Part shown: one piece after another, positions 1,340 to 51,228 of the stretch
How the letters are laid out: every line of letters starts with the position of its first letter
How positions within the stretch are numbered: position 1 is the first letter of the stretch
From: Caenorhabditis remanei
Taxonomy: Eukaryota; Nematoda; Chromadorea; Rhabditida; Rhabditidae
Assembly: GCF_010183535.1 (NCBI RefSeq)
Contig: NW_026526091.1
Span: forward strand, 62,001 to 126,000
Direction of reading: 5' to 3'
Length of the DNA: 64,000 nt
Translations under genes and position numbers: made by a program
The notes under the pieces: generated by a model
The model's input: only the letters and a program-made list of their open reading frames with translations
Databases searched by the model: none
What the model was told of the DNA's origin: nothing

Positions 1340-1364
1340 TGACTCAGAAAGTAACCCTTTTATA
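1340..1364 (-). promoter_or_regulatory. TATA element and AP-1-like site upstream of 1326
   Basis: On the minus strand TATAAAAGG (1364-1356) lies about 30-38 bp before the ATG at 1326, with TGACTCA (1340-1346) between them. The TATA element overlaps the TAA of the ATPase gene. TGACTCA is the AP-1/bZIP consensus and recurs upstream of the Maverick polymerase. Role inferred. Confidence 0.45.
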
Positions 1365-20639: not shown

Positions 20640-21010
20640 TGTCACATGGTACTTTGAACGTTCTCTCATTTGGAGGGGCGTTCCCTGTACTCTGTGTCTC
20701 TCTCCCTTTCTCCCGCGCGGGGTTGTCGACACCCGAGGGTCAGTGGTAGCGGAGTGCTAGGTCCCAAGACACACCAACCGTCTTGCGGTCTATTATTTAA
20801 TCTTTAATTATCTCTTTTATAGTTTTACATGTTTATTCCCATTAAGCCCCTTTAGTATTAGTCTCCCTCTTTAAGTTAACTTTATCTTTCTTATTCTTTA
20901 GTCTCCTCTAATAAATATTTATGTAATCGAGACCGTGTTCGTAAGTGTTGGATTTAAGTAAGTGGAAGGATAAGGTCCAAGTTCACATCATGGACGTCAA
21001 CCTTATTAAA
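20640..21010 (+). repeat. 5' LTR of element 1
   Basis: The 371-bp repeat starts TGTCACATGG and ends CCTTATTAAA. AATAAA occurs near 20911. The end is not the usual CA, but the boundary is fixed by the empty site and by the primer site starting with TGG. Confidence 0.93.
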
Positions 21011-21028
21011 TGGAGGTCCCACACCGAA
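21011..21028 (+). other. Primer binding site of element 1
   Basis: TGGAGGTCCCACACCGAA follows the LTR directly. The first 12 bases (TGGAGGTCCCAC) are shared with element 2 and would pair with a tRNA 3' end reading GTGGGACCTCCA, which fits a tRNA-Gln (assignment from memory). Confidence 0.65.
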
Positions 21029-28500: not shown

Positions 28501-30498
28501 GCCAAGACAAAAGCTGTCACCGACTTTCCAAGACCGAAAACTGTGAAAGATGTTCGTGCTTTCATTGGAATGGCCTCATTTTATCGACGTTTTGTGAACA
28601 ACTTCTCAAAGATTGCTGCTCCAATTATCGAACTCACCAAGAAAGATGAAAAGTTTGAATGGACTTCTGAGCGTCAACAAGCATTTCAACAACTCAAGGA
28701 TGCTTTGACTACCGAACCAATTTTGGTAGCTCCTCGTCTTGGAAAACCATTCGTCATCGAAGTTGATGCTTCTGGAAAAGGAGTTGGAGCTGTATTGTAT
28801 CAACAACAAGGTGAGGATGAGAAAGATTTGAGAGTTGTTGCCTACGCTAGCCGTGTCTACAATCGATTCGAGAAGAACTACCCTGCTATCGAATTGGAAG
28901 CTCTGGGATTAGTGTTCGCTGCCAAGACTTTTCGCCCGTATATTGATGGTGCTCATACCACTATCATAACGGACCATTCACCATTGAAGTCTTTGATGTA
29001 CCGAAAGGAGTTAGCTGGACGTCTTGGAAAATATCAACTCACCATCCAGGACATGAATATCAACATCCAGTATCGACCAGGCAAACAGAACATCGTTTGT
29101 GACACTCTTTCGAGATATCATCCAGAGAAGAAAGAAGACACCGAATCAACGCCAGACAAGCAGAACACCAAAAAGAAAGGAGAGATTGCCACCGTAGATG
29201 TACCACCTGCAATCAATGCCTTAACCAGTAATCACAACATCGATTTTGCCAAAGTTCGAGAAGAACAATCCAAAGATGAGAGGATCTTGGATATGGCAAA
29301 CAATTTGAAGAAATTCACCATTCATGACGACGTTGTATTCCTTAGAACACCAGAAAAAGAATGGATTATTCTTCTTCCACCCAAATCGCAATATGGAAAA
29401 GAACTCACCAAGATGATTCACGAATCTCTCTTCGAGAGTGCCCATCTAGGATTCGAGAAAACATTGCAACGTGTCAAATCAATTGCCACATGGAAGGGAA
29501 TGCATCAATCCATTCAGAAAGTCGTCGAAAGATGTGCCGTCTGCCAGCAAAACAAGGACTCTGCAAAACTGAGAATAAGAGCCAAGCTGGGAAGATTCGA
29601 AAAGACGACATCGCCATTCGAAAGAGTACATTCGGATTATATTGGTCCGCTACCGGAAACAACTCAACGGAGTCGATATATTGCTGTATTTGTTGATGCG
29701 TTCAGCAAATTTATCATTGCGGAACCAGTTCAAGATCAAACTGCCGAAGTACTATGTTCAGTCTTCAAGGATCGAGTGGTTGCAAGATTTGGAACACCGA
29801 AATTATTGGTTACGGATCAGGGAACGAACTACACTTCACACGTGTTTCGTGATCTACTGAAATCGCTGAAAGTGGAGCACAAGATGAGTACACCTTACCA
29901 TCATGAAGCCAATGGACAAGTCGAACGTGCCAACCAGACAATTGAAGTGATGATCCGCCAAATCGAAGACAAAGACGAATGGGATAAGGAATTGCAAACG
30001 CTCGTCCACGCGTACAACAATGCGATCAATACGACCACCGGAGTGAGTCCACACGTCGTAATGCACGGACAGGAGGCAAGGTCACCACTACGGAACGCCC
30101 TTCCACCGAAGGACCACGCGGAGAATGTGAATGACCATGTGCAAACATTGAAGGAGACCCACGAAGTTCTACAAAAAGAGTGTCACGCAAATATTGAGAA
30201 GAAAACACGCAAGCAAGAGGAAATTCATGACAACAAGAATAACCTGAATGACGTGGAAATCAAGATTGGTGACAAAGTTTGGATTAGAGAAGCTCGGTAC
30301 AACAAGATTGGAAAACAGTTTCTGGGACCATATCTGGTAACAGATGTTCAGGATCCAAACGTCACAGTTCAACACTCAGGACCGAATACGAGATCGAAGA
30401 CCGAGAAGACACGGACAGTGCACAAGAATCGATGCAAAGGGTACAAATCGGAAGAGAAAGAAGTCCCCACAACACCGGAGGACCCCGCAGAAGAATGA
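22501..30498 (+). CDS. Gag-Env-Pol polyprotein of LTR element 1
   Basis: One frame is open from 22501 to the TGA at 30496-30498. No ATG occurs before 23266 ('MSLNGEQNEQ'), so the N-terminal extension needs splicing or a non-AUG start. Order, counting residues from nt 22924: Gag core about 150-330; Gln/Asn/Gly-rich tail with RGRGG but no CCHC knuckle (350-470); signal-peptide-like 'FLMGLMMVFALFHGAAA' (about 484-500); Cys-containing ectodomain with 'RKRREVAG' (about 766) and a Thr/Pro-rich stalk (about 950-990); transmembrane 'WIAAPVIVILLFICFIYLYF' (about 1250-1269); aspartic protease 'LVDSGAAVSYMP' (about 1360); reverse transcriptase with 'YIDDVIITS' (about 1799); RNase H 'EVDASGKGVGA'; integrase HHCC then D,D-E ('HSDYIGP', 'VTDQGTN', 'HHEANGQVERANQ'). 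Pol is Ty3/Gypsy-like. The frame has no internal stop, so the element could be active. The env-like part is placed before pol rather than after it, which is unusual. Confidence 0.9.
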   Translation, partial: YQSFFINNLEDKPKRDKPVLPESSIRTRSQTRKDKEEELSKLAASTTASTSASTSASTSATTTTSGKVKKPPTKSKKSKKSTGNKEVKVEVEEPPVEEPPVEEPPVEETTAEETLIAPKENSPSNTKGFFTTLLNYTPFGKLKAEEAGKQETTENQGTPTTPPGKSVRVNPFDIDLSDSELFGSIFSSTPISSPSSQLTPPFSALLSPISSSPLSSPFVSANSSPNFSPPESESGSETLTVRHFQLNSSIAPSPKMSLNGEQNEQKPVLSDSELELEDQCAMDGPRLKVNSKKIWKDTADIIRLLEKSTKKFKDGRAADLVVWLNDVGKLLRLINVPAKTGIPLMPFFLENPARERFNTLKEDELTSWKTMSDAFVKLHECEADKEVALQEMATLVQGKLSIREFAEKIKRVGSYAYDDLETVSRERLMASQFLNGVHRNIRTEIRRLPTVPRTLRDMTLQAEKISRLLKIEAEEEEGDAMIAAVQFYHQKQQGGFNPNQNQGFNGNPNQGFNSHQNQGFNGPNRGNSRGRGGNRGRFGRRGNGNGFQGFQGFAGFQGNGFQQQQFQPQQFQNQQYQQHQFHPQQQFQQQQQQQPTGFPQITNGTTHGNRGNQGNQPRANVNSISNFLMGLMMVFALFHGAAASSSHQICGFGVNGNTFIPPPIIPCIFNNELQLRRHQVNVFVARSEVNQLEAVKCFKTEIEAKTFGILSIYHRTVAEVGKQLEVPEEECRRAASEKKFDGGKLEEISPGMWRSNSLGTEINNKTLWFGSYVNHVLEFTLQTGHVGTLDGSTIVSDLGSMETCSWESGSCRTGQATIVWMPQSPRRECPFRSAYSTEAILDLNHVALEETGVFSRIDKDLRKLNQIKDDCYLNEALLTDDGLLIEFPDHFHRRPKHQFLRDEPFWIRKRREVAGIKGAGGEWIQFEIGQNFSTPIVWKVLGVRRLEEVPKLTNPIDNPDILKEFKMYNVTNQLLTTRTKFYPEDRKHPQGEMVIALKAIRIAQYAWRERRRLTQLKRELTREERTMLGLIDSKDAFMFDPLLEREFGPSAADFLHLDSKYVAPRFDEAKLKSQPDIRPLDEASWSPPMAPTRPATTTTTTIRSTTTDMTTTTTTTTMPPPNVKPPSHQSKTTTSQLPQDVIIEDSMDRSSISKKSIQESFVDTCKDQFATASLFETLLSIDPTAAVRHLLKRKDVSAKRVGDTLMVSKCRTVTPSTIHWDRKVNDTCYDLIPVIVDGDLWFQLPGSDDLVGKAVVIPCNERPPGIRLENNRWIGAENREVNPQQLNRPNKITQDQFLLDAPKTFYTTMDEETGVSTGADKEKERRASRYQRDLENSLIQGGYLSDGLEFIKNTTSKVHKSAKEIYKSTVTSIGKGLEKVFFSVVQLLMWIAAPVIVILLFICFIYLYFKFRAFRRAAKLTKRATRETANVAIGLATQATQALARINNVHMDQRAHYEPVVAADDYPVIKINAVVNKCRFKIAKLPHIDVNMEGKILEALVDSGAAVSYMPLSSVRTKINSTTVPPAQAANGSSIPFLGTTQATIKIGDFYIPHTFLVSRDGDCPAPLLLGTDFVNEINKNHDFSINVHKGYVKIGTCEIQLNAVTVEEKIEVFPQKETIIEPQSEAVIPAIIPNYTEDMGTELYMEDTQEDSDDVYAVGRVLVRVGPKGKTMVQVFNPSSTSVRVKKNKPIAIGSKIGQVKTMNEVRGSPEADWESKLPKLPQETPKNFRISDWVDLSKSKLTENQKEVLRVIIDAHAEAFVGPDGVLGEYTGPIKHRIDLEEGCKIPQTKIYRIPLEKREEIGKQIRLMLEQRIIRPSNSPFLAPIVLVRKSDGITWRFTVDFRGLNAVTKPVQSVIPNIQEILDLCGGQELYTSLDFQSGFHQILVEPEHCQRTAFACFLGAFEYLRMPMGLKGSPGTFQRCMNLLIEQVRARIFVYIDDVIITSGSVEEHLQDIDEVLGKIEQIGMKLKAEKSKFAMSEISFLGFLVSKDGIKPDPAKTKAVTDFPRPKTVKDVRAFIGMASFYRRFVNNFSKIAAPIIELTKKDEKFEWTSERQQAFQQLKDALTTEPILVAPRLGKPFVIEVDASGKGVGAVLYQQQGEDEKDLRVVAYASRVYNRFEKNYPAIELEALGLVFAAKTFRPYIDGAHTTIITDHSPLKSLMYRKELAGRLGKYQLTIQDMNINIQYRPGKQNIVCDTLSRYHPEKKEDTESTPDKQNTKKKGEIATVDVPPAINALTSNHNIDFAKVREEQSKDERILDMANNLKKFTIHDDVVFLRTPEKEWIILLPPKSQYGKELTKMIHESLFESAHLGFEKTLQRVKSIATWKGMHQSIQKVVERCAVCQQNKDSAKLRIRAKLGRFEKTTSPFERVHSDYIGPLPETTQRSRYIAVFVDAFSKFIIAEPVQDQTAEVLCSVFKDRVVARFGTPKLLVTDQGTNYTSHVFRDLLKSLKVEHKMSTPYHHEANGQVERANQTIEVMIRQIEDKDEWDKELQTLVHAYNNAINTTTGVSPHVVMHGQEARSPLRNALPPKDHAENVNDHVQTLKETHEVLQKECHANIEKKTRKQEEIHDNKNNLNDVEIKIGDKVWIREARYNKIGKQFLGPYLVTDVQDPNVTVQHSGPNTRSKTEKTRTVHKNRCKGYKSEEKEVPTTPEDPAEE

Positions 30499-30685
30499 TG
30501 GTCTGTATGTTTACAATCGCTTATCTTCGGGTCAAATCTATCGTATGTTATCGGGTCATTTCATCAACTACCCTCCAATTATGTCTGTTTGCTGCCACAT
30601 CAACCAAGGAAAAAAAAAACAACGTGTATTACAAAAGAAGAAGAACAACAACAACAAAAACAACAAGAAAAGAAGAACAAAAAGC
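30499..30685. other. Spacer between pol and the antisense EGF gene
   Basis: A-rich spacer holding the 3' end region of both convergent genes. No separate gene. Plus-strand frames here are Lys/Asn/Gln low-complexity shadows. Confidence 0.5.
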
Positions 30686-31050
30686 TCAGCAGAGACTGTC
30701 ATCCAACAGCTGATCCTGACGACGAGTCAAGAAAAGACAAAGAAGAAGAAGGAGGACGAGAACGACGAAGCCGAAGCCGACAACGAGGAAGATGGTCCAG
30801 GCTGAAAATGTTGAGTTATTTTATTTGAAAATCTCTTTCATTTACCTCCGGAGCTGCTGGCGACAGTGGTCACGGCAGGAGCCGAGACAGTCGTGTTGAC
30901 GAGGGGGGACGCCGCAGTTTCGGCCATCTGCTCACAAATCTCTCCGACCCATCCTTCATCGCAAACACATTGGAACGACTCCAACATCTGCATGCAGAAG
31001 CCATGGAAGGAGCAAGCAGCGTCACACAGGAAAGCAGCGACACGAGACAT
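30686..31050 (-). CDS. Antisense EGF-like single-pass membrane protein (element 1)
   Basis: A two-exon gene opposite to the retroelement: exon 1 31050-30846, a 44-bp intron (GTAAAT...TTTTCAG), exon 2 30801-30686. The product is about 106 residues. Exon 1 encodes one EGF-like module, 'LCDAACSFHGFC', then 'CVCDEGWVGEICE', with spacing C-x3-C-x5-C-x8-C-x-C-x8-C, followed by a Ser/Thr/Ala/Val stalk. Exon 2 begins with a hydrophobic helix ('WTIFLVVGFGFVVLVLL...') and ends in a short cytoplasmic tail starting 'TRRQDQ'. There is no classical signal peptide, so N-out insertion by the transmembrane helix is likely. Element 2 has a homologue at 38052-38470 with identical cysteine spacing and the same phase-1 intron just before the helix. 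Function unknown; a cell-surface or virion-surface role is inferred. Confidence 0.75.
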
Positions 31051-31632
31051 GATTTCGCTGAAAATTCACAATTTCGGTTGAGAATTCGCTGCGAAACATG
31101 GAATTGGACACGAAAATCGTTGAAGAAAGAAGAAAAAACGAAGGAAAACGAGGAAAAATGATGAAAATGGAAGAAAATCGAACGAAAATGGTCGTTTCTC
31201 GTAACCTGTGGTACGGTTCATTTTGGAGCGTTTGTGGTGGATGTTGCGGGGCAGAGCTGGAAGAGGATGGATTTTCGCTGGCAATCTCGCGGATGGTGGA
31301 GGATTCAATCGTGGATCAATGGCCATCTGCGAGTTCGAGTCATTGGCCAACTGCGTGTCTACTCGAGTTCAATCGTGTTCTTCATGCTTCTTCAATTTGG
31401 ACAGTCGTGGTTCCCTGGTGTAGCGGCATTGTTGTTTATGTTGTATTAATTGTATTGTATTTATTATTGTAATTTTTATTGTATATTGAGTGTATTATGT
31501 TTTATTATAGTTTCCATTATTTCATCCCTTAGTCATTTAGGAATTTACTTGTAAATATCAGTTAACTGTAGGTTCCCCAATATTATGTATAAGTCTCCGA
31601 GGACGTCGATGCTCTTCCGGAAGGAGGGGGGA
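31051..31632. other. 3' untranslated region of element 1 with polypurine tract
   Basis: Holds the presumed promoter side of the antisense EGF gene and ends in a polypurine tract (GGAAGGAGGGGGGA, 31619-31632) directly before the 3' LTR. Plus-strand frames at 31098-31472 lack recognisable features and overlap this region only by chance. Confidence 0.6.
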
Positions 31633-32003
31633 TGTCACATGGTACTTTGAACGTTCTCTCATTTGGAGGGGCGTTCCCTGTACTCTGTGTCTCTCTCCCT
31701 TTCTCCCGCGCGGGGTTGTCGACACCCGAGGGTCAGTGGTAGCGGAGTGCTAGGTCCCAAGACACACCAACCGTCTTGCGGTCTATTATTTAATCTTTAA
31801 TTATCTCTTTTATAGTTTTACATGTTTATTCCCATTAAGCCCCTTTAGTATTAGTCTCCCTCTTTAAGTTAACTTTATCTTTCTTATTCTTTAGTCTCCT
31901 CTAATAAATATTTATGTAATCGAGACCGTGTTCGTAAGTGTTGGATTTAAGTAAGTGGAAGGATAAGGTCCAAGTTCACATCATGGACGTCAACCTTATT
32001 AAA
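31633..32003 (+). repeat. 3' LTR of element 1
   Basis: 371 bp, identical to the 5' LTR by eye, followed by the CTAT target duplication at 32004-32007. Confidence 0.93.
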
Positions 32004-33840: not shown

Positions 33841-34232
33841 TGTGAACGGGGAGAACCAGACTCTAGTCTGGCTTCCCCTCTTTCGCAATCCTCTCCTCTT
33901 AGCGGCCCACCACCAAGAGGAGAGACGGAGGAGACAGGCTCCGCCCCTACTCTAAGGAGCAGGGACGGCGCCCTCTCTTTTTCTTTAGTCTCGAGATAGC
34001 CTTAGCTCTGGGAAGTCACCTGTCCAGGGATGAAACCCCGATCTACAGTAACACCGTAGTTCGGGAGTTCACTAAGGTTACTTCACTCGATATTTACTCA
34101 ACTATAATAAACCCATATATATTCAATAACCAACTGTCTTCTATTTATCTTGTGTCCTACCGTAACCCCAAGTCCGAGGGATCGGATAAAGGTTGAGCTA
34201 GAATGAAGGGCATCGGGAGCGTCCCCTTCACA
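33841..34232 (+). repeat. Solo LTR of LTR element 2 family
   Basis: A 392-bp LTR, TGTGAACGGG to CCCTTCACA, identical by eye to the two LTRs of element 2 (36607-36998 and 50837-51228). It is flanked by CTAT on both sides (33837-33840 and 34233-34236). The full-length element occupies the mirror-image site in the right arm with the same CTAT. AATAAA occurs near 34106. Confidence 0.95.
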
Positions 34233-36606: not shown

Positions 36607-36998
36607 TGTGAAGGGGACGCTCCCGATGCCCTTCATTCTAGCTCAACCTTTATCCGATCCCTCGGACTTGGGGTTACGGTAGGACACAAGATAAATAGAA
36701 GACAGTTGGTTATTGAATATATATGGGTTTATTATAGTTGAGTAAATATCGAGTGAAGTAACCTTAGTGAACTCCCGAACTACGGTGTTACTGTAGATCG
36801 GGGTTTCATCCCTGGACAGGTGACTTCCCAGAGCTAAGGCTATCTCGAGACTAAAGAAAAAGAGAGGGCGCCGTCCCTGCTCCTTAGAGTAGGGGCGGAG
36901 CCTGTCTCCTCCGTCTCTCCTCTTGGTGGTGGGCCGCTAAGAGGAGAGGATTGCGAAAGAGGGGAAGCCAGACTAGAGTCTGGTTCTCCCCGTTCACA
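36607..36998 (-). repeat. 3' LTR of element 2
   Basis: 392 bp, identical by eye to the 5' LTR and to the solo LTR. A C-run on the plus strand (36999-37006; GGGGGGA on the coding strand) is the polypurine tract next to it. Confidence 0.93.
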
Positions 36999-37198
36999 TC
37001 CCCCCCGGTTGGAAAAGTGACCGTCCCTGGTCACCAAAAGGAGGAGACCTACATATTATCAATTAAATATTGTATATATATATATAAAAAAAAGAACATT
37101 TACATAAAAAGAATTAAAAGAAAGTGATGTTAAAGACAATAAACGCTAACCTAAAATTACCTAAATTATTATTGTGAAAAGAAAAATTATTATCCTTG
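36999..37198. other. 3' end of element 2 before the LTR
   Basis: AT-rich tail with a TATATATATA run at about 37074-37085 and the polypurine tract at 36999-37006. No gene. Confidence 0.5.
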
Positions 37199-37750
37199 CT
37201 ACATTCTGAATGGGTATTGTGGGTATTGGGGTGGGAGAATGAATTGTGGGGCGGGTTGTGGTGAGACATAATGGATGGTTGGTTGTGAAATCAATTGGGG
37301 TGGAATTTGGGATGGGATTTGGGATGGAAATTGTGGTGGGAAGTGAGGGGCCGCTATTTGCACTACCTGGGGTTGGTGGTACAGTGTAGGCGGATATTGC
37401 AACAGCTGCTGTGGACGCTGCTGCCCGTTGTTCTTCTTTTGCCCTTTCTTCTGTTGCCATTTCCTTCCTGGAGTTCCAGCTGGGGTTTCCTTCTTCTTTC
37501 TTCCTTGTGCTCCTCCTCTCCCGTTGTTCTCCATCCTTGTGTTTCCTCCACGTCTCCAATTCCCTCGTCTCGGACCGGTGTTCCTTGGTGGGCTTCGTCT
37601 TGGGGAGCGTCTTCTTGCTGGGCTGCGGATTCTGAACGGTCCTCTGCCTGCCGGAAACTGCACCCTTGATCTTAGAGTGGAACTGGAAAATTCTATATTT
37701 TTAGTTTCTTCCGACTTTTCTTTGGCAATTTTCTTCTTTTGGGAATTCAT
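37199..37750 (-). CDS. Basic Arg/Gln/Pro-rich accessory protein of element 2
   Basis: A 183-residue protein from the ATG at 37750. Residues 1-20 are Lys-rich ('MNSQKKKIAKEK'). Residues about 40-85 are strongly Arg-rich with 'RSPARRRSPRRSPPR' and 'RRGNWRRGG'; the C-terminal half is Gln/Pro-rich. The composition suggests an intrinsically disordered RNA-binding or nuclear-import protein. C. elegans Cer1 is reported to encode an accessory protein (CERV) for RNA export, and a similar job here is possible, but I see no proof of homology. Element 1 has no equivalent. An upstream non-AUG extension is possible. Low-complexity composition limits certainty that it is translated. Confidence 0.5.
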   Translation of the reverse strand: MNSQKKKIAKEKSEETKNIEFSSSTLRSRVQFPAGRGPFRIRSPARRRSPRRSPPRNTGPRRGNWRRGGNTRMENNGRGGAQGRKKKETPAGTPGRKWQQKKGQKKNNGQQRPQQLLQYPPTLYHQPQVVQIAAPHFPPQFPSQIPSQIPPQLISQPTIHYVSPQPAPQFILPPQYPQYPFRM

Positions 37751-38051
37751 TGTTCGCGGCAATCAAAAAATCCGTTTTTAAATTTCCGCGCAAATGATTT
37801 CCCGAGGTGGCCCGCAAGTGCGCTCTACTGGACTGGCGTTTTCAAAAGTTGTTTATTTGTTTTTGGCTATAATTTTCGATTTTTCCTGCTATTTTTCGAC
37901 GTTTTCTCGTTTTTTCCCGTCGTTTTCCTTCACCAATTCCATTTTTAATCAACAACTTAGCCATTTTCCAGCATTTCCTCGTTTTTCTCGTGATTTTTCT
38001 CACGATTTTCCATTTTCCGTTAACAATTTAGCCTTTTTCCAGACTCCCGTC
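37751..38051. promoter_or_regulatory. Divergent spacer between accessory ORF and antisense EGF gene
   Basis: A 300-bp T-rich interval between the ATGs of the minus-strand basic ORF (37750) and the plus-strand EGF gene (38052). It must contain any private promoter of the EGF gene. No motif stands out. Confidence 0.35.
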
Positions 38052-38470
38052 ATGCAACGTGTCGCTCTCGGGCTCTGTCCCTCAGACTGCTCAATGCGTG
38101 GTACTTGTCGTCTCGTCGGAGGATTTGCCAAATGCTTTTGCCGAAAAGGGTGGACCGGAGCTGCCTGTGAGACCGCGACCGCGGCTGTTGCTTCCACCGT
38201 CATCCCGAGTACTCCGGACTCCAGTATTCTCGGTAAGCTGAAATTCTTAACCAATTTTTTCACCTCTCATCTCTTCTTGCAGTCCCCATCTTGCTCGTCG
38301 CGTTGCTGAGCCTGCTCGTTGTCTGCCTCGCGGCTGTCGTCGTCTATCTGATGTCTGGTAGGCGCTCAGTTGGATGTGTCGATTTCGACGCCGAAATCGA
38401 GAGTGGCAAGGCTATGCTCCACGAGAAGGCTACTTTCTGGAAGAAGGTTAAGGCTCGATTTGTTAACTGA
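38052..38470 (+). CDS. Antisense EGF-like single-pass membrane protein (element 2)
   Basis: A two-exon gene opposite to the retroelement: exon 1 38052-38232, a 50-bp intron (GTAAGC...TTGCAG), exon 2 38283-38470. The product is about 122 residues. The EGF-like module reads 'LCPSDCSMRGTCRLV', then 'CFCRKGWTGAACE', with spacing C-x3-C-x5-C-x8-C-x-C-x8-C, exactly as in element 1. A Thr/Val/Pro/Ser stalk follows. Exon 2 starts with the helix 'ILLVALLSLLVVCLAAVVVY' and has a cytoplasmic tail of about 40 residues ending 'FWKKVKARFVN'. Both genes start 'MxRVA', and the phase-1 intron lies directly before the membrane helix in both. There is no signal peptide. Sequence identity is low outside the cysteines, so conservation of the architecture suggests selection. 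Confidence 0.8.
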
Positions 38471-39201
38471 GGCCCGCGGATTCCTTGAAATTTAATTTTC
38501 CCTTCTCTGCTTTCCCTTCTGAACCTCTCACTTTAATTGTTACTTCTTTTACTGCACTGATCTTATTTTCTTAAGTTTTCCATGTTCGATTAAGCTAGAT
38601 CTCTCTCTTTGATCTTATTTTCTCTTTCGCCGGGTATTTGAGGCGTGTAGCTTAATCCAATTATCTTTTTATCTGATTTCCCCAAAATCTCTCGATTCTA
38701 CTAGGATTTTTCTCTCATTTCTTCTCGTTCTTCTGATATCTCTTTTATCTCTTCTCATTCTTCTACTCATGTTCTCTGTTATCTCTCCACTTTCTAACCT
38801 TTCTTATTTTTACCCATTTTCTCGATTTCTCTGTACTCTCTCGTTCTCCTGTTGTCTCTCTATTTCTCATCTCACGGGTGTTTCAATTTGTTGACGGGTT
38901 GCTTTTTATTGTTACGGCTACACAAAAGAATGAAGTCCCGTTGTTAATAATCATTCTTAGCTAATTTAAATATTCGCTTTTCAGGAGTTTTTCTCTAGAT
39001 GAAAGGATTTTAATATTCTTTTGGCAAAACTCTTTTCTTCTGGTAACCAGTGAAACAAAGTGAACGATTTTCTTACGAACTGCCAACCTTCTCGACCACC
39101 TTCTATTTTTAGATGACGTTTATTCGAAGGGATAAATTCTCTGGTATATATGGTATTATTCTAAATTATGATAGAGGAGACGAGAAAAAAAAATTCGACT
39201 A
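38471..39201. other. Pyrimidine-rich spacer between EGF gene and 242-residue ORF
   Basis: A T/C-rich stretch full of TCTCTTT and TTTCTC motifs. It separates two convergent genes and holds no credible frame. It probably includes the 3' ends of both transcripts. Confidence 0.5.
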
Positions 39202-39930
39202 TTATTCCAAATCGTCTGTCGCCACGATTTCCCATTCTTCGTTCTCCGAATCCTCCTCCTGAGGGTTTCTTCCTTGCGGCATGGTGATTCTTGCGAACCC
39301 TCTGAGTGGTCTCTGTCCCTCCGGAAGCCAGACGTATGGGTGTGGGGACCGGAGTAGTGGCTGGAGTCCTGCCTCCTCTGCTGATTGATATCTTGTTACA
39401 AAGGCTGCATTCCCCTCCTTTTCTTCCGTCGTGAACCGTCGTGCCATTCCGATGGCAATGGCTCCGTCCCTTCCCATTTGGAGCTCCATGCTCAGTTTTT
39501 TCTCCTTCGAGAAGGTCTTGAGCCATGCCTCCACTGCTGAGTTTGTATGCTTGACTTTCGCGAACGGAAAGAATCCGTTGTAGTAGTGGCCCGTCTCCCC
39601 GAACCACGGAAACTGATTGTGAAAGAGGACCTTCAGTAGCAGTTCCCCTCCTTTTTGATTTTGGCTGGGAAGGTAGATCGATTGAATTCCTAATTTTTCT
39701 CCATCCAATTTAACTTTCCATCCAGAACAAGTTGTTTCATCTAATTCCCCTTTCCTTGGATGGTAGTCTTCGGAATAGACAGTGATTTCAAAGAGCTCTC
39801 CTGGTTGCCTTTTCTTTGATTGGTTGTGAATGACTAGGTTTTCTTCGAATTTCGGGGTGAAGAGCATGACTCTTCCTCCTTCTTCCGAGATGACCATAGC
39901 CTTGACAATCGTTACGTTGTTGCACGCCAT
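39202..39930 (-). CDS. Accessory ORF of element 2, 242 residues, unknown
   Basis: An intact frame from the ATG at 39930 ('MACNNVTIVKAMVIS') to 39202. It lies downstream of pol on the coding strand and is separated from it by about 350 bp. The N-terminal two-thirds looks like a compact beta-rich domain ('GRVMLFTPKFEENLVI', 'GELFEITVYSEDYHP'). The C-terminal tail is acidic ('EEDSENEEWEIVATDDLE'). There are no cysteine clusters, no signal peptide and no membrane helix. Element 1 has no match. I do not recognise it. It could be an accessory regulator expressed from a spliced mRNA. Confidence 0.55.
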   Translation of the reverse strand: MACNNVTIVKAMVISEEGGRVMLFTPKFEENLVIHNQSKKRQPGELFEITVYSEDYHPRKGELDETTCSGWKVKLDGEKLGIQSIYLPSQNQKGGELLLKVLFHNQFPWFGETGHYYNGFFPFAKVKHTNSAVEAWLKTFSKEKKLSMELQMGRDGAIAIGMARRFTTEEKEGNAAFVTRYQSAEEAGLQPLLRSPHPYVWLPEGQRPLRGFARITMPQGRNPQEEDSENEEWEIVATDDLE

Positions 39931-40277
39931 CTTCAAGAAAACTCAATTAGTGATGCATGTCTAGTTCCTTCCTTTAATAATTTTCTTTTCCGACTAGGCC
40001 TTCCCCCTTTCGCTCTTCTTTTCGCTGCTCTTCGCATTTCTTTTCCGTTTCCCTTTCTATTACAACTCATTACACTTTCTCTCGTTTTACACGTTCTTTC
40101 TGACTTTCCTGGACGGGAATTTTACTAGAACTCTTATTTATTGATTATTTATTAATGCAAATTAAAAAAAGAGTAGGTTATATGTTTCTAAAATGAAATA
40201 GAGTATTTTAATAGCATTTTAACAGTATTTTGAAAGTCTAATAACTGGGCGGCTGTTGATGGCAATACTTCTTGTGG
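39931..40277. other. Spacer between pol and the 242-residue ORF
   Basis: AT-rich, with no frame of interest on either strand. Confidence 0.5.
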
Positions 40278-43112
40278 TTATTTTCTCTCAACGAATTTCT
40301 TGCAACGGTCCTTGTGAACCCATATCTCTCTTTTGTCTCCATTTCTGGTGACTCTTCCAAACCCTTGGATGGCAATGTTGGGGTCTTCAACCTTGACAAC
40401 TTCAAATGGACCTAGGAAAGGTGAACTAAGCTTGTCCCTTGGTCCTTTCCTGAGCAAAATCTTGTCTCCAACTTCAAATTGAACGTCATTTATGTTGTCC
40501 TTATTGTTGTAACGGTCGTTTCTCTCCTTCGTTCTTTCTTCAATCTTTGCTCTGCAATACGCTTGTTGCCTTCCCAGCGTTCTTCTGATGTTATCCATAT
40601 ATTCGTTGACTGACACTTCACCGGTTTTTAGAAGGCTGTTTTTCATCGGGGTTCCCGGACTAAACGTGTGCACCACTCGAAATGGTGCAATCCCCGTTGT
40701 CGCGTGAACAGACGTATTGTAGGCGTGAACGACCTTCTGCAAGTAGATGTCCCAACATCCCTCATCCTTGTAGGGTCGGAGTGCAATTTCGATGACTTGA
40801 TTCGCTCGCTCAACTTGTCCATTTGATGAATGGTGGTATGCCGTGGAGATTTGGTGAGTGACGTTTTTTAAAAGAAGAAAGTGGGCTACCACTTTGGACA
40901 TAAAGTTAGTTCCTTGATCGGTGACGACGATCTTGGGGATTCCAAATCTCGCAAATAATCTGTCACTGAGTGTTTGGACTGTTGTCATTGCTGTTTGGTC
41001 TTCTAGGGGCTCGGCGACAATGAATTTCGAGAATGCGCAGCACATGACCAAGACATATTTGTAAGAGCGTTCCGTTGTTGGCCAGGGTCCCACGAAGTCG
41101 CAGTGGACTCGTTCGAATGGTTGTGAGACACTTTCGAACTCGTGTAGTCGTGCCCTGGTGCGAGCAACAGCCGGATCCTTGGTTTTCTGGCATGTTGGGC
41201 ATGCTGCAACAACGTTTCTTACAGCAAGCTCCACTCCTGGCCATGTCGCTATCTCCTTGACCTTGTGATATGTCTTATCTCTGCCCATGTGTGCTCCTTC
41301 GTCCAAATCTCCATGAATTTTCTCGATCAGTTCCTTTCCATATTTTGTGTCTTTCGGCAGATATACGACTGGTGTTCCTGTCGTCACTTTGTAGACAATT
41401 CCATCATGGAGTGCAAAGTGATCCAGTTTCTCATGGATTGCTGTAAAGTCCGGGGCCGTTTGTTGTTCGGCTCTGACAACTTTCATGTCAATCCATGTGG
41501 GGATGACCGCGTTAACTAGTGGATGATGTCTTGACAGCGCGTCTGCGATGACATTGGCTTTTCCTGGTCGGTATACAATGGTCACATTGTATTCCTGCAA
41601 GATGATCTGGTATTTCGCCAAACGTCCTTGCAGGTCCGTCCGGTATAACAGTGCCTTGAGCGGCGAATGGTCTGTTATAATTGTTGTTTCCGCTCCGTCG
41701 ATGTATGGACGGAACTTTGTCACCGCAAAGATAAGTCCAAGAGCTTCAAGTTCGATGGCTGGGTACCGTTTTTCATGCTTGTTGTATACTCGCGATGCAT
41801 ATGCAATCACTCGAGGCTCGATGGCCTCTCGATCTTGAGATTGCATGAGAACGGCTCCAACACCTTTTCCTGAGGCATCCGTTTCGATGATAAACGGGTG
41901 TCCCAACTTTGGTGCTGCCAAGACTGGACTTGACACGAGGGCTAGCTTCAATTTCTCGAATGAATCTTTTTGTTCTTCGTCCCAATGGAATTCAGAATCC
42001 TTCTTGGTGAGTTCGGTTAAGGATGTGGTGATTTTTGAGAAATCCTTAATGAACCTTCTGTAAAATGAAGCAAGGCCTAGGAATGCTCTTACATCCCTGA
42101 CCGTCTTGGGTGTCGGATATTCCGTGATCGCCGAAGTCTTTGACGGATCGGGGTGTATTCCTTCTGCGGAAACGACGAATCCCAAGAAAGTAATTCTGTC
42201 CTGTCCAAACTTTGCTTTGCTCGGTTTCAGCTTCATCCCTGATTGTTGGATCATTCCCAGGACCTCTTCGATGTCACGTAAGTGTTTTTCTGCATTTGGT
42301 GACGTGGTGATAATGTCATCAATGTAGCAAAATACTCTGGCCTTCAGTGGTCTCAATAGACTGCGCATGATTCTTTGAAAAGTGCCTGGACTTCCTTTCA
42401 GACCCATGGGCATTCGGATGTACTCGTAGACACCCATAAAGCTTGCGAATGCAGTTCTTTCACAATGAGCTTCTTCTACCGGGATCTGATGAAATCCTGA
42501 TGCAAAATCAAGAGTGGTGTATATTGGATTCTGAGCTGTTACATCCAATAACTCCTGAATATTCGGAAGTACTGATTGTACTGGCTCCGTGATATTATTC
42601 AGAGCCCGGTAATCAATGCAAAATCTCCATGATTCTTTATCAGCCTTTTTCACCAAGACAATCGGTGCTGCAAATGGAGACGAAGACTCCCGAATGATCC
42701 CTTGCTTTTCCATCTCTTTGATCTGCTTTTCGACTTCTCGACGTCGTTCCAGGGGAATCCGATAATTCTTTGGTGGGGGAATTATCGCGTCCTTTACGAA
42801 ATCGATTCGATGTTTGATTGGTCCCGTGTAGCATCCTAAGACGCCATCCGGAGCGACGAAGGCTTCCTTGTGTTGGTTGATGATTTCCTTCAGTCTTCTT
42901 TTCTGGTCTTCTGTGAAGATGGATTTGCTGAGATCGATTTCATCTGATGGTTGATATCCTGGAGGAGTTTCTGTTGGTAGGCGCGGCAGTTTCGATGTCC
43001 AGTCGGCTTCTGGTGGTGTGTATCCTTCGTCCCAGACTTGTTCATAGATGGTGGCTGTCGCTAGCGCTTGGCCTGCATACAACTGGATTGATTTCGCTGA
43101 GGGATTACACAA
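40278..43112 (-). CDS. Pol part of element 2: RT, RNase H, integrase (after in-frame stop)
   Basis: The same reading frame as the Gag-Env-protease part, continuing straight after a TAA at 43115-43113. There is no ATG at its beginning, so as the sequence stands it needs stop readthrough, or this copy is defective. RT has 'FCIDYRALNNITEPVQS' and the catalytic 'YIDDIITTS' (about 42326-42315). RNase H has 'IIETDASGKGVGAVL', 'ELEALGLIF' and 'ITDHSPLKALL'. Integrase has a HHCC finger ('HMGRDKTYH', 'CPTCQKTK') and the D,D-E core ('VHCDFVGPW', 'VTDQGTNF', 'HHSSNGQVERANQ'). It ends 'VHKDRCKKFVERK' at 40278. It aligns throughout with element 1 Pol. Ty3/Gypsy type. Confidence 0.88.
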   Translation of the reverse strand: MCNPSAKSIQLYAGQALATATIYEQVWDEGYTPPEADWTSKLPRLPTETPPGYQPSDEIDLSKSIFTEDQKRRLKEIINQHKEAFVAPDGVLGCYTGPIKHRIDFVKDAIIPPPKNYRIPLERRREVEKQIKEMEKQGIIRESSSPFAAPIVLVKKADKESWRFCIDYRALNNITEPVQSVLPNIQELLDVTAQNPIYTTLDFASGFHQIPVEEAHCERTAFASFMGVYEYIRMPMGLKGSPGTFQRIMRSLLRPLKARVFCYIDDIITTSPNAEKHLRDIEEVLGMIQQSGMKLKPSKAKFGQDRITFLGFVVSAEGIHPDPSKTSAITEYPTPKTVRDVRAFLGLASFYRRFIKDFSKITTSLTELTKKDSEFHWDEEQKDSFEKLKLALVSSPVLAAPKLGHPFIIETDASGKGVGAVLMQSQDREAIEPRVIAYASRVYNKHEKRYPAIELEALGLIFAVTKFRPYIDGAETTIITDHSPLKALLYRTDLQGRLAKYQIILQEYNVTIVYRPGKANVIADALSRHHPLVNAVIPTWIDMKVVRAEQQTAPDFTAIHEKLDHFALHDGIVYKVTTGTPVVYLPKDTKYGKELIEKIHGDLDEGAHMGRDKTYHKVKEIATWPGVELAVRNVVAACPTCQKTKDPAVARTRARLHEFESVSQPFERVHCDFVGPWPTTERSYKYVLVMCCAFSKFIVAEPLEDQTAMTTVQTLSDRLFARFGIPKIVVTDQGTNFMSKVVAHFLLLKNVTHQISTAYHHSSNGQVERANQVIEIALRPYKDEGCWDIYLQKVVHAYNTSVHATTGIAPFRVVHTFSPGTPMKNSLLKTGEVSVNEYMDNIRRTLGRQQAYCRAKIEERTKERNDRYNNKDNINDVQFEVGDKILLRKGPRDKLSSPFLGPFEVVKVEDPNIAIQGFGRVTRNGDKREIWVHKDRCKKFVERK

Positions 43113-46100
43113 TTAAAGCAACGTTTTCCCTTCGTCATCGGTGTTAACCACCGTTCTGGCAACAGTGTAGATGTCGTCCGATTCTCTTTGGTTGTCCTGA
43201 ATCATGAACTCATTCCCCATTTCCGTTCGATAGTTCTCCAGTTTGGCTGGAATCAACGCTTCGGATCTTGGATTAACGATGCATTTGAATAGCACCACTA
43301 CTCTGATGGTATCCCTTTCCGGTGCTAACTCAACGCTACAAATCAATGCAACTTCTTTTCCGATCGTTAGCTTCTTGTTCACCATATCGAAGTTAATGGG
43401 GTGTCCTTGTCTATTCAGGTTTCGGACGAAGTCTATGCCTAACAACATTTCAGATGGACAATCGCCGTTTACAGACACTAGTAGTAGCTGATCTACTACG
43501 ATGTCTCCAATTCGGATTTTCTGTTGGGTGGATCCGTTGAACTTGATGACTGATCCGTTTGCTGCATTTGCAATCTGCTTTCCGCTCTCGATTTGTTCTG
43601 GTTGGACCATTGATTCTGGAAGGTAACTCACTCCTGCGCCTGTGTCGATCAATGCATGGAGTGTTCTTCCATCCATTTCCACTTGAATCACTGGCAGATG
43701 TCCTTTGTTGTGGTGATGTAAGACCGAGTAGACTCCAGGAATAGGATACTCGTCCTCTATGTTTGTGGCAACATAGCATTTCCTTGTTGGCGTTTGGTCC
43801 ACGTAGTTGACTGATCTTAGTTGTTTTGTGGCCATCTCTATCATCTGTCGTGCTGTTACAGTGGCTGCTTTCCGGGCAAGCTTGTATTTGCAATAGGCGT
43901 ATAAGATGATTACGAGGATCACAATTACTGCAAGCGGTACAATTATTATCAGCAAAAATTTGGTCACATCGAAGACCACAGTTTTCACTGTTTCGAAAAC
44001 TCGTTTTCCAGCTTGATTCCATATTGACTCCAGTGTGTTGGCTACTCGATCCTTGTGAACCTTTACAGTGTTGGTGATGAAATCCTTTGCTTTGACAACA
44101 TTTTCTTCTAAAAGTTTGAATGCGATGTTGTTGACTTTTTGACGATACATTTTGCTCAATTCTTCATCTGCTGCCGATGAGGTTCCTGGACCTAAAAGAT
44201 CTTTTCCAACAACAGTCGGTGTTTGAAAGAGAAATTGGTTGGCTTCTCTTCTGATTGGTCGATTGAATGTTTGGACCCATGTTTCTGATCCTTTCTCGTT
44301 TCTCCAAACGAGATCTTCTTTATGGATTTTCCCCGTTTCTTGTGGTGTCGTACATTCAACTGATCCCGATTCGGCAACCAGGTCATCGGTGCCTTCGAGT
44401 AGGAACCATATCTTTCCATCGATCATCATCGGAACCAAGTCGAAACAGGTGTTATTGATTTTCCTGTCCCAAATGATTTCTTCTGGTTCGACGGTCTTGC
44501 ATTGGGTGACTAGTATTCCTTGTCCTGCTTTCCTGGCTGCTATGTCAGTTCTTTTCATCAGCTGTCTGACTGCTGCCGTAGGGTCAATATTCAGTACTGT
44601 TTGGAATAGAATAGTCGCCTCTCGTTGTTGAATGCAAGTGTTCATGAAAAGATCAATAGCTGGACTATGAAACGGTCTTTCTTGTGGTTTCTCGAATACC
44701 ACATTCCTGTTGCTTTCCGGAATGTACTCTTCCCATGTTTGAACTTGTGGAAGATTGGTTGTCGTTGTTGTAGTCGAGGGTGTCGTTACTGGTGGTAACC
44801 TTGGTGGAGTCGGTTTCGGCGGAGATGTGCTTGCTGGTGTTGTTCTCGGTGTTTGTGGTTTCGGAGTCGTTGTTTTTGGTGGATTAGTTGGTTCTGGTGG
44901 GTTTGGTACTTGGGCTCTTGTAGGTGCAACTGTTCTGGGCACTACTACAGTTGGCTGCTGAGTGGTTGTTGTCGTCGGAGCAATGGTCACGGTTCGAATG
45001 GTTGGAGGTACGTATTCCACTTCAATGTATGGAGTTCTGTATTCCATTTTTAATACTTTGTCCTCGTCGAATCTGGGAAATTTATAGCCGGCATGTGGTG
45101 TGGAATCTGTTTCCTCACTCACTCCAAATTCGAGGTCTAGTAGTGGGTCGAACACGTTCACCAGATCACTGCTCATGATTTTTAACAGTTCTGATTCGGC
45201 TGCAGTAAGTTCTCGTTTCAAGTTGTTCAGTCGTTCCGTTGTTCGGAACTTATACTGCATGATTCTGATACACTTCAGAACAATCAGCTGATGCCCTAGA
45301 GAGTTTTTCCTCTCTGACTCGTACCTTTCGGCTCTGGTCATTAGTAACTCATTTGTTACTCCAAACGTCTTGATCTCATTCAGGATCCTAGGATCACTGA
45401 TTGGCTCAGTCTCGAAACGCTCTATCTTTTCGAGAGCATCTACACTGAAGAGTCTCTGTATGATGGGTACAGCAAACTTTTCTCCCAAGTTTAGAGCCAT
45501 AGTAATGTTGTTTGGTCCTGGAACCAGCAATAATGTCCTTTTCCTTCTGTGATGACCTTCCTTCATTCGGACATAGTCTGGGATCCAAAGATCAGAAGGC
45601 AGCTCTGGGAATGAGATCATTTTTCCGTCGTCCGTGAAGTACACGTTTCCAACGGTACATCCTTTTGCTTCTGTGTCCGTGAATCTCATATCTTGCGATA
45701 TGGCTGCGAACATTCGAAGCTCTGGGATTGCAATATGTTTATCCGAGATGAAAGCATTTGCTGAAGTCATGCGTTGGTATTTACATGACTGGAATGGGGC
45801 ACTTTCCATCCACACGATGGTGGTTTTCTCGGTCTTGCAGTATCCGGACGAATAGAGACATTTGGACGTATCTCCAAGAGTGGAGATAGTGGTTGCGCCG
45901 TCGAACGAAGCGACTTCACCCACCACGATGATGATTTCTTCGTGATTGAAGTGGGTGCTGCCAAACCACGCCGTGTGATTTTCAGCTACCTCCGATGCAT
46001 GTGCTGAACGGAACACGCCTTTCGGAGATTCGATCAGATCTTTTCCAGCAAACTTCTTCAGTCTCACTGCTTCTCTGCATTCTTGAACGCGAACCGACTG

Positions 46101-48096
46101 GAAGACATTCTCTCCTGGGTTTGTCATTTTAGCTGTGACGTAGAACTTCAGAAATGAAAAAGTTTGTACTTGGAACGTTTGCTTATAGCAAGAATGAGCA
46201 ATCTGTCTCATTGGATCTGATCTGAGTTCGAAGATGTCCGCTTTTGTGGCTACGATTGGTGTTTTCGGTGGCTCACAAGGCAGAACTGACGGTGGTACGA
46301 ACATATTACCTCCTTGCTGAAAACCACAAATTTGGGGCTTGCCTGCCTGGGCTAGACCAACCAGCATCATTGATATCGTGAGGTATGCGAGCAGCTTGTT
46401 GGGAAAGCCTCTTCCACGGTGGAAGTTGCGCTCGTCCTGAGATCTTTCCTCGTTACGATAGTTGCGACCTGGTGGTTGCTCTGGGCGAAACCTGTTTAGA
46501 GGGGATTCCATAGGAAATCTACCTCTGGGAGGTTCCATCGGGAATCGATTTGGTGGGTACTGAAGTGGAGGACCTCTACCTCTCATGGGTGGCCGATTAT
46601 CTTGACGATAATTTGTACGATCGTTTTGGCGAAAATTTGGGCGAAAGTTTTGGCGATCGTTCCTTTGGAAGTTTGGCCGACCTCCATTTCGGTAGTTTGG
46701 TGGGTCTCTTCCTCCATATCTCCACGATGGTTGGGTTCCAGACTCAAGTGGAGGCGCACTAGGTTGACGATAGCTTGGGCGGCCGGTCATTTCCCGATCT
46801 TGATCCGGTGCTGGTCTCATAAGCTGACTCATGGCAGCAACGAGCTGTTCGTCTTCCTTTTCCTCATCGAGGTTATGGAGTCTTTGGAACCGTTCCGCTT
46901 TGCGGATCATTTCCTCCAAGGTTTTTGGCACGTTCTCCATCTGGAGAAGCTTCTTCCGGAGATGGGGAGCAGCATGATGCATGAAGTGATTGAGAAGGAG
47001 ACTTTCTCTCACGTTCTCTGGCATGCCCTCATAGGCATACTCACCCAGCGTTCTGAGTCGTCTGGCGTACTCAGTGATCGTGAGCTCTCCTTGTTTCAGA
47101 GTCGTGATTTCCTGCTGAGCAAGTTCACGATCTCCTGGGACTTCGAAAGCTCTAATCAGATTCTCCACCACATCTGTCCACGTTGCCTTTTGAGCAGCGG
47201 CCAGTTGGTGATAGCGCTGCTTCGCTAACCCATCAAGGAAGAATGGCAAGATCCTGGCCCCGGCTTCTTGCTTAATGTTGAGGTTGTGGAGGGCAAGCCT
47301 GTAATCCACTAACCATCTTCGCAGTGCTGCTGTGTTCCCTTTGCTGAACTTGGGAACGTGGCCAGCAACTGCCCTCAAGGCCTTGAGAGGTTCCGTCTCT
47401 GCGGGCGAATCCTCTTCCCATTGCAGATCACCTGCGAGCTCCTTTTTCTCCATGTCTGGTTTCTCCGGTTTACGAGTAAAGCTCTTTTCCTCTTTTCCGG
47501 GTTTTCCAGGGGGTGTGGAGTTAGGAGTGGGGTTCTTCTCCTTGAGGTCACTTGGATTCGGTGTTAACACTTCCTCCTGTTCGTTCTCAGTGGACTTTCC
47601 GCTGGTCTGGTCCTGTGGGTCTTCCTCCGAATTTTCAAAGAACGAGAGAAATCTGGCGAAGAAGTCTCTAACCTTATGAGTTGGTTGAGGTGAACCAGTT
47701 GGACCTTCCCGGCGAGAAAGTATGGGGGTTTCTTTGAGAGGAAATTGGGATGGGGTTTGGTAATTACTCCCGGGGGATGAAAAATCCTCTACCGGATTCG
47801 CAAACTGCGCGCGGGGTGTTGGTAGTTCTGCGTTCAGGAGCTGTCCTGGCGTTTGCGGTAGGGTCGCCGTGAGATCCCGTGGGGTGCTATCTGCTGGATT
47901 CCCACGGACTGGTCTGCTGGCCTGCTTTGGCTTTTCAACGCTTTTTGTGAAAGCGTCGAACTGCTCTTTCTCCCTCCTTTTCAAGCGCTCTTCTCTTTCG
48001 CGATTTGCTCTCCTCCTATCTTCTTCGCGCTCTTCTTTACTCCGGTTCCACTGAAGACTCAGTTTGGCCGAATCAGTAACTCTTACTCCTTAGATT
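43113..48096 (-). CDS. Gag-Env-protease part of element 2, ends at in-frame stop
   Basis: The frame is open from about 48096; the first ATG is at 47453 ('MEKKELAGDLQ'), just before the Gag core, as in element 1. Order: Pro/Ser-rich extension with 'RDFFARFLSFFE'; Gag core (about 47380-46800); Arg/Asn-rich tail without CCHC knuckles ('MRGRGPPLQ', to about 46425); signal-like 'LLAYLTISMMLVGLAQAG' (about 46405-46350); ectodomain opening 'PQICGFQQGGNMFVPP'; basic site 'HHRRKR' (about 45555-45538); Thr/Pro-rich stalk (about 45010-44750); transmembrane 'FLLIIIVPLAVIVILVIILY' (about 43960-43900); aspartic protease 'LIDTGAGVSYLP' (about 43660-43625). The TAA at 43115-43113 falls where element 1 reads on without a stop. 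Everything else looks intact, so this is either a single lesion or a readthrough site. Confidence 0.88.
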
Positions 48097-50836: not shown

Positions 50837-51228
50837 TGTGAAGGGGACGCTCCCGATGCCCTTCATTCTAGCTCAACCTTTATCCGATCCCTCGGACTTG
50901 GGGTTACGGTAGGACACAAGATAAATAGAAGACAGTTGGTTATTGAATATATATGGGTTTATTATAGTTGAGTAAATATCGAGTGAAGTAACCTTAGTGA
51001 ACTCCCGAACTACGGTGTTACTGTAGATCGGGGTTTCATCCCTGGACAGGTGACTTCCCAGAGCTAAGGCTATCTCGAGACTAAAGAAAAAGAGAGGGCG
51101 CCGTCCCTGCTCCTTAGAGTAGGGGCGGAGCCTGTCTCCTCCGTCTCTCCTCTTGGTGGTGGGCCGCTAAGAGGAGAGGATTGCGAAAGAGGGGAAGCCA
51201 GACTAGAGTCTGGTTCTCCCCGTTCACA
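50837..51228 (-). repeat. 5' LTR of element 2
   Basis: 392 bp, TGTGAACGGG to CCCTTCACA on the minus strand, followed by the primer site and flanked outside by ATAG (CTAT) at 51229-51232. Confidence 0.93.

Follow-up and report, generated by a model that had tools for sequence, protein, structure and literature searches.

Two Ty3/Gypsy retrotransposons lie in the window, the whole 64-kb stretch of the Caenorhabditis remanei assembly that was analysed (C40:62001-126000), and each carries, antisense to its own genes, a small two-exon gene for a protein with one EGF domain and a single membrane helix (EGF-TM; Table 1). Both elements, here E1 and E2, encode gag, aspartic protease, RT, RNase H and integrase in the Gypsy order (Pfam), and this PR-RT-RNaseH-IN order, together with LTRs and 4-bp target site duplications (TSDs), identifies them as Ty3/Gypsy elements. 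The two LTRs are 100% identical within each element (371 bp in E1, 392 bp in E2), and the primer site of both is TGGAGGTCCCAC. E2 has two further sense frames, neither with a Pfam match. ORF-B has a 27-30% identical stretch in the C4:2729k and C1:14244k elements, which belong to the subclade of E2, and none was seen in the E1-type loci compared; stretches similar to ORF-C occur in loci L002 and L005.

Table 1. Features of the two elements and of their EGF-TM genes (window positions), with the EGF-TM loci of the assembly
Feature	Position	Strand	Details
E2 antisense EGF-TM gene	38052-38470	+	Two exons, 122 aa, antisense to Ty3/Gypsy element
E2 EGF-TM exon 1	38052..38232	+	181 nt, EGF domain and stalk; ATG at 38052
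E2 EGF-TM intron	38233..38282	+	GTAAGC...TTGCAG, 50 nt, phase 1; identical junction in NCBI model P0002
E2 EGF-TM exon 2	38283..38470	+	Membrane helix, basic tail, stop; TGA ends 38470
E2 3' splice site	38034..38042	+	TTTTTCCAG, 9 nt 5' of ATG; acceptor in NCBI model P0002
E1 antisense EGF-TM gene	31050-30686	-	Homologue of E2 gene, 106 aa
E1 EGF-TM exon 1	30846..31050	-	205 nt; ATG at 31050
E1 EGF-TM intron	30802..30845	-	GTAAAT...TTTCAG, 44 nt, phase 1
E1 EGF-TM exon 2	30686..30801	-	Membrane helix, tail, stop
E1 3' splice site	31058..31064	-	TTTTCAG, 7 nt 5' of ATG
E2, Ty3/Gypsy, 14.6 kb	36607..51228	-	LTRs 36607-36998, 50837-51228; TSD ATAG on both flanks
E2 pol	40281..43112	-	RT, RNase H, integrase; Pfam RVT_1, RT_RNaseH, rve
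E2 open frame gag - envelope-like - protease	43116..48089	-	Pfam Retrotrans_gag, gag-asp_proteas
E2 envelope-like region	43857..46415	-	RRKR site; Pfam Glycoprotein_B 3e-4, Monjiviricetes_fusion 3e-3, below curated cut-offs
E2 sense ORF-B	39205..39942	-	Accessory, 246 aa
E2 sense ORF-C	37202..37762	-	187 aa, Arg/Pro/Gln-rich
E1, 11.4 kb	20640..32003	+	LTRs 20640-21010, 31633-32003; TSD CTAT
E1 envelope-like region inside gag-pol	24355..26760	+	RKRR site; Pfam Glycoprotein_B 1.1e-6, Monjiviricetes_fusion 4.9e-6, below curated cut-offs
Solo LTR of E2	33841..34232	+	Mirror position of palindrome; 100% match to E2 LTR, CTAT on both flanks
Loci with intact EGF-TM gene			E1, C174, C3:14522k, C4:3774k, C5:13609k, C6:3373k, C6:21368k; E2, C4:4110k, C122, C3:16049k, C4:2729k, C1:14244k
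Loci with damaged EGF-TM gene			C2:17448k, C2:17472k (frameshifted); C6:21262k (degraded)

Much of the window is a very large palindrome (about 11348-64000, centre about 35420), with main arm segments 99-100% identical and with 183-bp tandem arrays. Its arms differ in that E1 faces an empty site (the uninserted site is at 53062-53065 on the opposite arm) and the solo LTR faces the full E2. Either a genuine inverted duplication or the joining of two haplotypes during assembly could account for the palindrome. In its own orientation each element has CTAT as its target duplication (36603-36606 and 32004-32007), which reflects either chance or target preference. At 1363-2037 (-), 4737-5210 (-) and 32774-33046 (+), weak Pfam matches, most of them under the curated cut-offs, to a Pox_A32-type ATPase, an adenovirus-type protease and a viral-type DNA polymerase B suggest that Maverick/Polinton sequence surrounds the Gypsy insertions.

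The two EGF-TM genes stand out clearly within the window. The pattern C-x3-C-x5-C-x8-C-x-C-x8-C occurs exactly twice in it (38076+ and 31026-), once in each gene, and never in 100 windows simulated from it with a first-order Markov model. Of the 819 ORFs in the window, only these two genes were recovered (E 1e-15 and 4e-12) by a profile of three EGF-TM proteins from two other lineages, and both proteins match Pfam EGF_Teneurin above the curated cut-off (30.2 and 29.9 bits versus 24.3). Automatic NCBI predictions agree closely, as GCK72_012394 [C. remanei] is 98% identical to the E2 gene and CRE_26768 differs from the E1 protein at two residues. An earlier note on this DNA had reported that E1 and E2 have in common this spacing, an 'MxRVA' start and a phase-1 intron directly before the helix, and had described the start and stop of the E2 gene; all of this was borne out, as was its remark that the sequences have otherwise diverged, the two proteins being 30% identical. 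The phase-1 intron before the helix recurs in all 13 element copies modelled. When splice sites and helix were scored at five loci, the phase-1 model ranked top in four of four element loci and second to a phase-2 model in the fifth, an orphan gene described below. Furthermore, a CAG acceptor, pyrimidine-rich in E1 and E2, is found 1-9 nt 5' of the ATG in all ten genes read, the orphan included (3-9 nt in the element copies modelled). Acceptors closely 5' of the ATG are usual in nematode trans-splicing, and TTTTTCCAG before the E2 ATG is a candidate trans-splice (spliced-leader) acceptor.

An alignment of eight EGF-TM proteins (E1, E2, five further element copies and the orphan) shows that the six cysteines are kept throughout, and all eight match EGF_Teneurin at E 0.01 or better. 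Each has one hydrophobic helix C-terminal to a Ser/Thr-bearing stalk, and in E2 the layout runs from a single EGF domain through the Ser/Thr stalk and the one membrane helix to a basic tail. Basic residues (K/R) number 0-1 in the 15 residues before the helix and 2-7 in the 15 after it in all eight. According to the positive-inside rule, the basic flank of a membrane helix faces inside; this bias would thus place the EGF domain outside and the tail inside. Since the first EGF cysteine is residue 9, there would be, judging from length alone, too little space ahead of it for a conventional signal peptide, and for this reason we infer that the helix acts as a reverse signal-anchor. Two upstream sources of a signal peptide were considered and rejected: in E2 the open frame extends to 37782 and includes a hydrophobic stretch, yet E1 has an in-frame TGA 5' of its ATG; and the upstream exon of NCBI model P0002 differs from the open upstream frame of E2, neither being conserved given the E1 TGA. 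A structure model of the protein reached pLDDT 66.

By profile, the nearest solved structures are Notch and teneurin chains (PDB), and the E1 EGF domain also matched Delta/Jagged EGF models, below cut-offs. Such a Notch/teneurin type of domain speaks for a mimic of host signalling, in which the protein would bind a worm receptor (Notch/GLP-1, teneurin or similar) in germline or neighbouring cells and alter their proliferation or survival independently of any envelope. We regard this as unlikely, because Notch-type EGF domains are generic adhesion modules and because the cysteine spacing (3, 5, 8, 1, 8) does not fit the consensus of EGF-receptor ligands (EGF, TGF-alpha, LIN-3), C-x7-C-x4/5-C-x10/13-C-x-C-x8-C. 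The same misfit disfavours the receptor mimicry proposed in the earlier note, insofar as it concerned EGF-receptor ligands.

Each element also has an envelope-like region between gag and protease, within gag-pol, which is an unusual position. In both, it comprises a hydrophobic leader, an RKRR/RRKR site, a Thr/Pro-rich tract, a gB-like segment ('IDPTAAVR...') and a membrane helix directly 5' of the protease. Its similarity to the class III fusion models of Pfam is sub-threshold: E1 scores 28.8 bits against a cut-off of 43 and 25.2 against 27, and the Glycoprotein_B and Monjiviricetes_fusion matches of P0007 are likewise below cut-off. Matches to gB in PDB are weak (E 0.003-0.03 with E1 alone, 0.04-0.5 with an E1/E2 profile), and the structure model, at pLDDT 32, is unusable. 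We therefore describe the region as class III-like and not as a proven fusogen. A gB-like env is found in the Tas element of Ascaris. Literature searches located fusogens of other kinds in nematode elements (phlebovirus-like in Atlas, and Maverick) and, within open-access papers, no class III env or fusogen in a nematode Gypsy element of the E1/E2 kind.

We surveyed the C. remanei assembly (130.5 Mb) with four element EGF proteins and E2 pol as queries. The pol search gave 342 candidates, of which 48 were scored, and all counts are lower bounds. Membership of the E1/E2 clade was assigned at 53% or more over pol, or 60% or more over RT-RNase H, and C6:21262k was assigned through a 98% match to E1 pol. 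At least 17 pol loci belong to the clade, 16 of them testable (C87 ends before its 3' region), and in 16 out of 16 an EGF gene lies on the opposite strand 3' of pol; the LTRs bounding the gene were shown directly for E1 and E2, and the other loci were scored as 3' of pol. The gene is intact in 13 and damaged in three. C2:17448k and C2:17472k still have open gag-env-pol frames (2338 and 2647 aa) despite their EGF frameshifts, which, being 24 kb apart, are probably one event. Among the matches scored, the 31 other pol loci (45% or less) have no EGF match within 10 kb. The survey of carrier clades that the earlier note had proposed was thereby carried out within one genome. Identity between the pol proteins of E1 and E2 is 61% in RT-RNase H and 42% in integrase, so the two belong to one clade and the description of them as distant holds in a relative sense.

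Beyond these loci, two EGF fragments, C4:21764k (exon 2 alone) and C3:15208k (lacking its 5' end), were excluded from the 16; their 3-kb loci gave no pol match and contain only pieces of the sense ORF-B or ORF-C. The orphan is an intact EGF-TM gene at C1:12395490-12395876 (+) (L058 485-880), with its acceptor placed as in the element copies and no pol match within the 4 kb examined. It is equally close to the element copies and to a frame of 592 aa at C1:751468 that is presumably host sequence, and is either a domesticated copy or a host source. Protein searches found relatives only in C. remanei (2, 4 and 2 matches), a range limited by the shared-word method and by annotation, which does not speak against relatives elsewhere.

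These placements bear on how the gene came to be in both elements. It might be argued that E1 and E2 captured different host EGF genes independently, an outcome that the earlier note had named as a refutation, given that their proteins share just 30% identity and that single EGF domains converge readily. However, place and strand are identical in 16 of 16 testable elements, intron phase and site are one in the modelled copies, the EGF and integrase trees contain no conflicting split (the EGF tree being weak, with support 65-94 and no outgroup), and both genes are recovered by a profile built on two other lineages, so that independent capture is very improbable. Judged by shared position, intron and trees, the EGF-TM gene is one inherited protein-coding accessory gene and not two captures.

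An env match adjoins pol in 14 out of the 16 EGF-bearing elements; in C3:16049k the nearest is ~11 kb past the end of the pol match, and in C6:21262k there is none near. Such co-occurrence is circumstantial support for the role in cell-to-cell transfer that had been suggested earlier, as the same elements would supply an envelope-like protein. It would also agree with superinfection exclusion or envelope control, whereby the EGF protein in the producing cell would bind its own envelope, or the receptor of that envelope, and limit re-entry or display; separate antisense expression would permit independent timing. We consider such control distinctly unlikely, as seven of the 31 sister pol loci have an env match near pol but no EGF match. 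In the two of these seven whose 3' regions were read (C1:4540k and C2:848k), the EGF pattern is absent. Judged by the matches at the seven loci, env can do without the EGF gene, and an obligate pairing of the two was set aside.

Env sequence is also found apart from complete elements. Long open gag-env frames (1505-1691 aa) occur at C3:2900586, C5:17306526, C4:4170820, C81:14046, C3:14808131, C6:2937518 and C55:14721, possibly a non-autonomous gag-env family; in four of these seven copies, the ones probed for RT, pol is missing or cut. Ten env loci lacking an EGF match were chosen for inspection of their 3' regions, of which nine were readable (C87 ends too early). These nine showed no pol or EGF at E 0.05 and no EGF pattern, and at E 10 gave chance-level matches only. 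Among the four probed, C3:2903k and C4:4173k (99% identical) have ~30 aa of RT followed by a break (recognisable in one), and RT is absent in the other two. We read the four as pol-deleted derivatives, which cannot test the link between env and the EGF gene.

Selection on the protein was estimated as w (dN/dS, Nei-Gojobori) for 24 EGF-gene pairs, three of them identical and the other 21 not independent. Values of 0.16-0.25 were obtained in 19 of the 21 and of 0.37 and 0.50 in the remaining two. Six pairs, two of which share E1, have p values: E1 vs C5_136 (dS 0.60, dN 0.14, w 0.24, p 4e-7), E1 vs C3_145 (w 0.18, p 0.003), C122 vs C3_160 (w 0.18, p 0.002), C174 vs C4_377 (w 0.25, p 0.03), E2 vs C4_411 (w 0.16, p 0.04) and C4_272 vs C1_142 (w 0.50, p 0.02). 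Pol is more constrained (w 0.07-0.11, three pairs), and in the integrase of E1 vs C5 synonymous sites are saturated. The dN/dS comparison of element copies suggested in the earlier note thus gives values below 1 rather than near it, and its view that both elements keep the same gene for its protein is upheld. A neutral passenger hitchhiking in the elements would account for the damaged copies in three of 16, but w of 0.16-0.50 at p 4e-7 to 0.04 in the six pairs leaves it with hardly any probability.

Overlapping strands call for care in reading these values. In the E1/C5 pair, w is lower in the gene frame than in the other frames of its strand, for either exon (0.26 and 0.22); in exon 1 the wobble-aligned frame of the opposite strand scores the same, by geometry, and in exon 2 that frame contains stops. 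Exon 1 of C122/C3_160 likewise shows an equally low w in the opposite frame, and in exon 1 of C4_272/C1_142 another of the six frames falls below that of the gene. Since dN/dS alone is ambiguous in exon 1 there, the coding strand is settled by the cysteines kept across lineages and by the Pfam match.

Protein selection is not the only force acting on this stretch. Nucleotide identity between the E1 and C5 families reaches 77-95% across 30401-31200, a segment that includes the EGF gene with its noncoding flanks, as against 53-77% in integrase windows before 30401 and 58-77% beyond 31200. The intron, at 91%, and the 100 nt upstream, at 87%, exceed the exons (82% and 78%) in identity, from which it follows that nucleotide constraint or recombination is also acting; the block could reflect exchange as a module, constraint on regulatory sequence or a combination of the two. 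Within it, a noncoding stretch upstream of the E1 gene (31101-31200), rich in pyrimidines when read on the strand of the gene and 95% identical to the C5 family, is a candidate antisense promoter or outron. The antisense location and the unusually conserved flanks and intron of these two families are points in favour of antisense RNA control, in which the transcript and not the protein would matter (by way of dsRNA or small RNA, or by interfering with sense transcription). That this is the whole story, one of the options raised in the earlier note, is disfavoured by selection on amino acids, by six cysteines kept in the eight aligned proteins and by frames open in 13 of 16 copies, and we consider it quite improbable.

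Since selection has kept the EGF-TM gene, it probably benefits its element through a role at the surface of the cell. As to how, we tentatively propose, as a possibility somewhat short of probable, an accessory surface protein that partners the envelope-like protein of the element. Transcription would be driven by an antisense promoter of the gene's own; spliced-leader trans-splicing at the acceptor directly 5' of the ATG would form the 5' end of the mRNA; and the helix would serve as a reverse signal-anchor in place of a signal peptide, with the N-terminal EGF domain outside, followed by the Ser/Thr stalk, the helix and the basic tail inside. At the surface of the expressing cell, and perhaps on particles too, the EGF protein would act in adhesion or attachment beside the envelope-like protein embedded in gag-pol.

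The antisense orientation may also explain why the gene has an intron at all. Classical transduction takes up spliced sense RNA. An intron-bearing antisense gene would survive reverse transcription because the sense genomic RNA is unspliced there, and the retained intron suggests capture at the DNA level. We speculate further, and with more doubt than conviction, that these elements are enveloped retroviruses of nematodes whose surface machinery has two components, namely a class III fusogen encoded between Gag and protease and a spliced, antisense EGF protein that serves attachment. The EGF gene would have entered as genomic DNA with its intron and been kept, perhaps exchanged as a module between families, since antisense placement shields introns at the RNA stage. 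In any case, the gene suggests a route by which intron-bearing genes persist in retroelements, and a surface protein tied to envelope-bearing elements bears on the possible movement of retroelements between cells or species in nematodes. Moreover, a readable domain, a predicted anchor and selection on the protein, in a tractable worm genus, make the function of antisense accessory genes testable.

Several known systems resemble this gene in part. HBZ of HTLV, a nuclear bZIP regulator, is likewise an antisense protein gene close to the 3' LTR, and the C. remanei product is instead a predicted membrane EGF protein. In Caenorhabditis itself, the Ty3/Gypsy element Cer1 has an accessory gene, CERV, in the region between pol and the 3' LTR, which differs in lying on the sense strand and being spliced to exons of gag, and whose product is a nuclear RNA-export factor; the words 'antisense' and 'EGF' have 0 occurrences in the text describing it (PMC10309623). 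The primer binding site of Cer1 is given there as tRNA-Pro TGGGGGCCG, as opposed to TGGAGGTCCCAC in E1 and E2, which rules out their membership of the Cer1 family. LTR elements of bdelloid rotifers have extra ORFs with membrane segments and cysteines (Env, and a small TM ORF3), for which the authors suggest env-like roles; in the available part of the account, the ORF3s are not described as antisense, EGF is not mentioned, and an env derived from herpesviruses is mentioned in passing (PMC5408684).

The closest likeness is to the aORF-3R, antisense extra ORFs between pol and the 3' LTR in plants and fungi, with examples such as maize Grande gene23, rice RIRE2, Silene Retand, Phaseolus PvRetro13 and fungal Boty; according to a review, which also mentions an antisense LTR promoter in HTLV, such genes have been known in LTR elements since the 1990s without clear function or homology, and for Grande gene23 an antisense promoter of its own was reported (PMC7264820). 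An antisense ORF at this place is therefore already known, and our searches found no EGF gene in LTR elements within the open-access literature (most subscription papers and preprints being outside its scope), so that the EGF-membrane version, as predicted, appears unmatched in the open literature searched. Like the aORF-3R, which in the text available are antisense at the same place, present in most family copies and conserved about as well as other element proteins (PMC7264820), the C. remanei gene is antisense to gag-pol at 16 of 16 loci and kept by most copies (13 intact, 3 damaged). Whereas aORF-3R products are described in that text as having no clear similarity to known proteins, with the Grande product nuclear and that of PvRetro13 bearing an SMC domain (PMC7264820), the gene in C. 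remanei differs from them in its EGF domain, its predicted membrane anchor, its two exons and its animal host.
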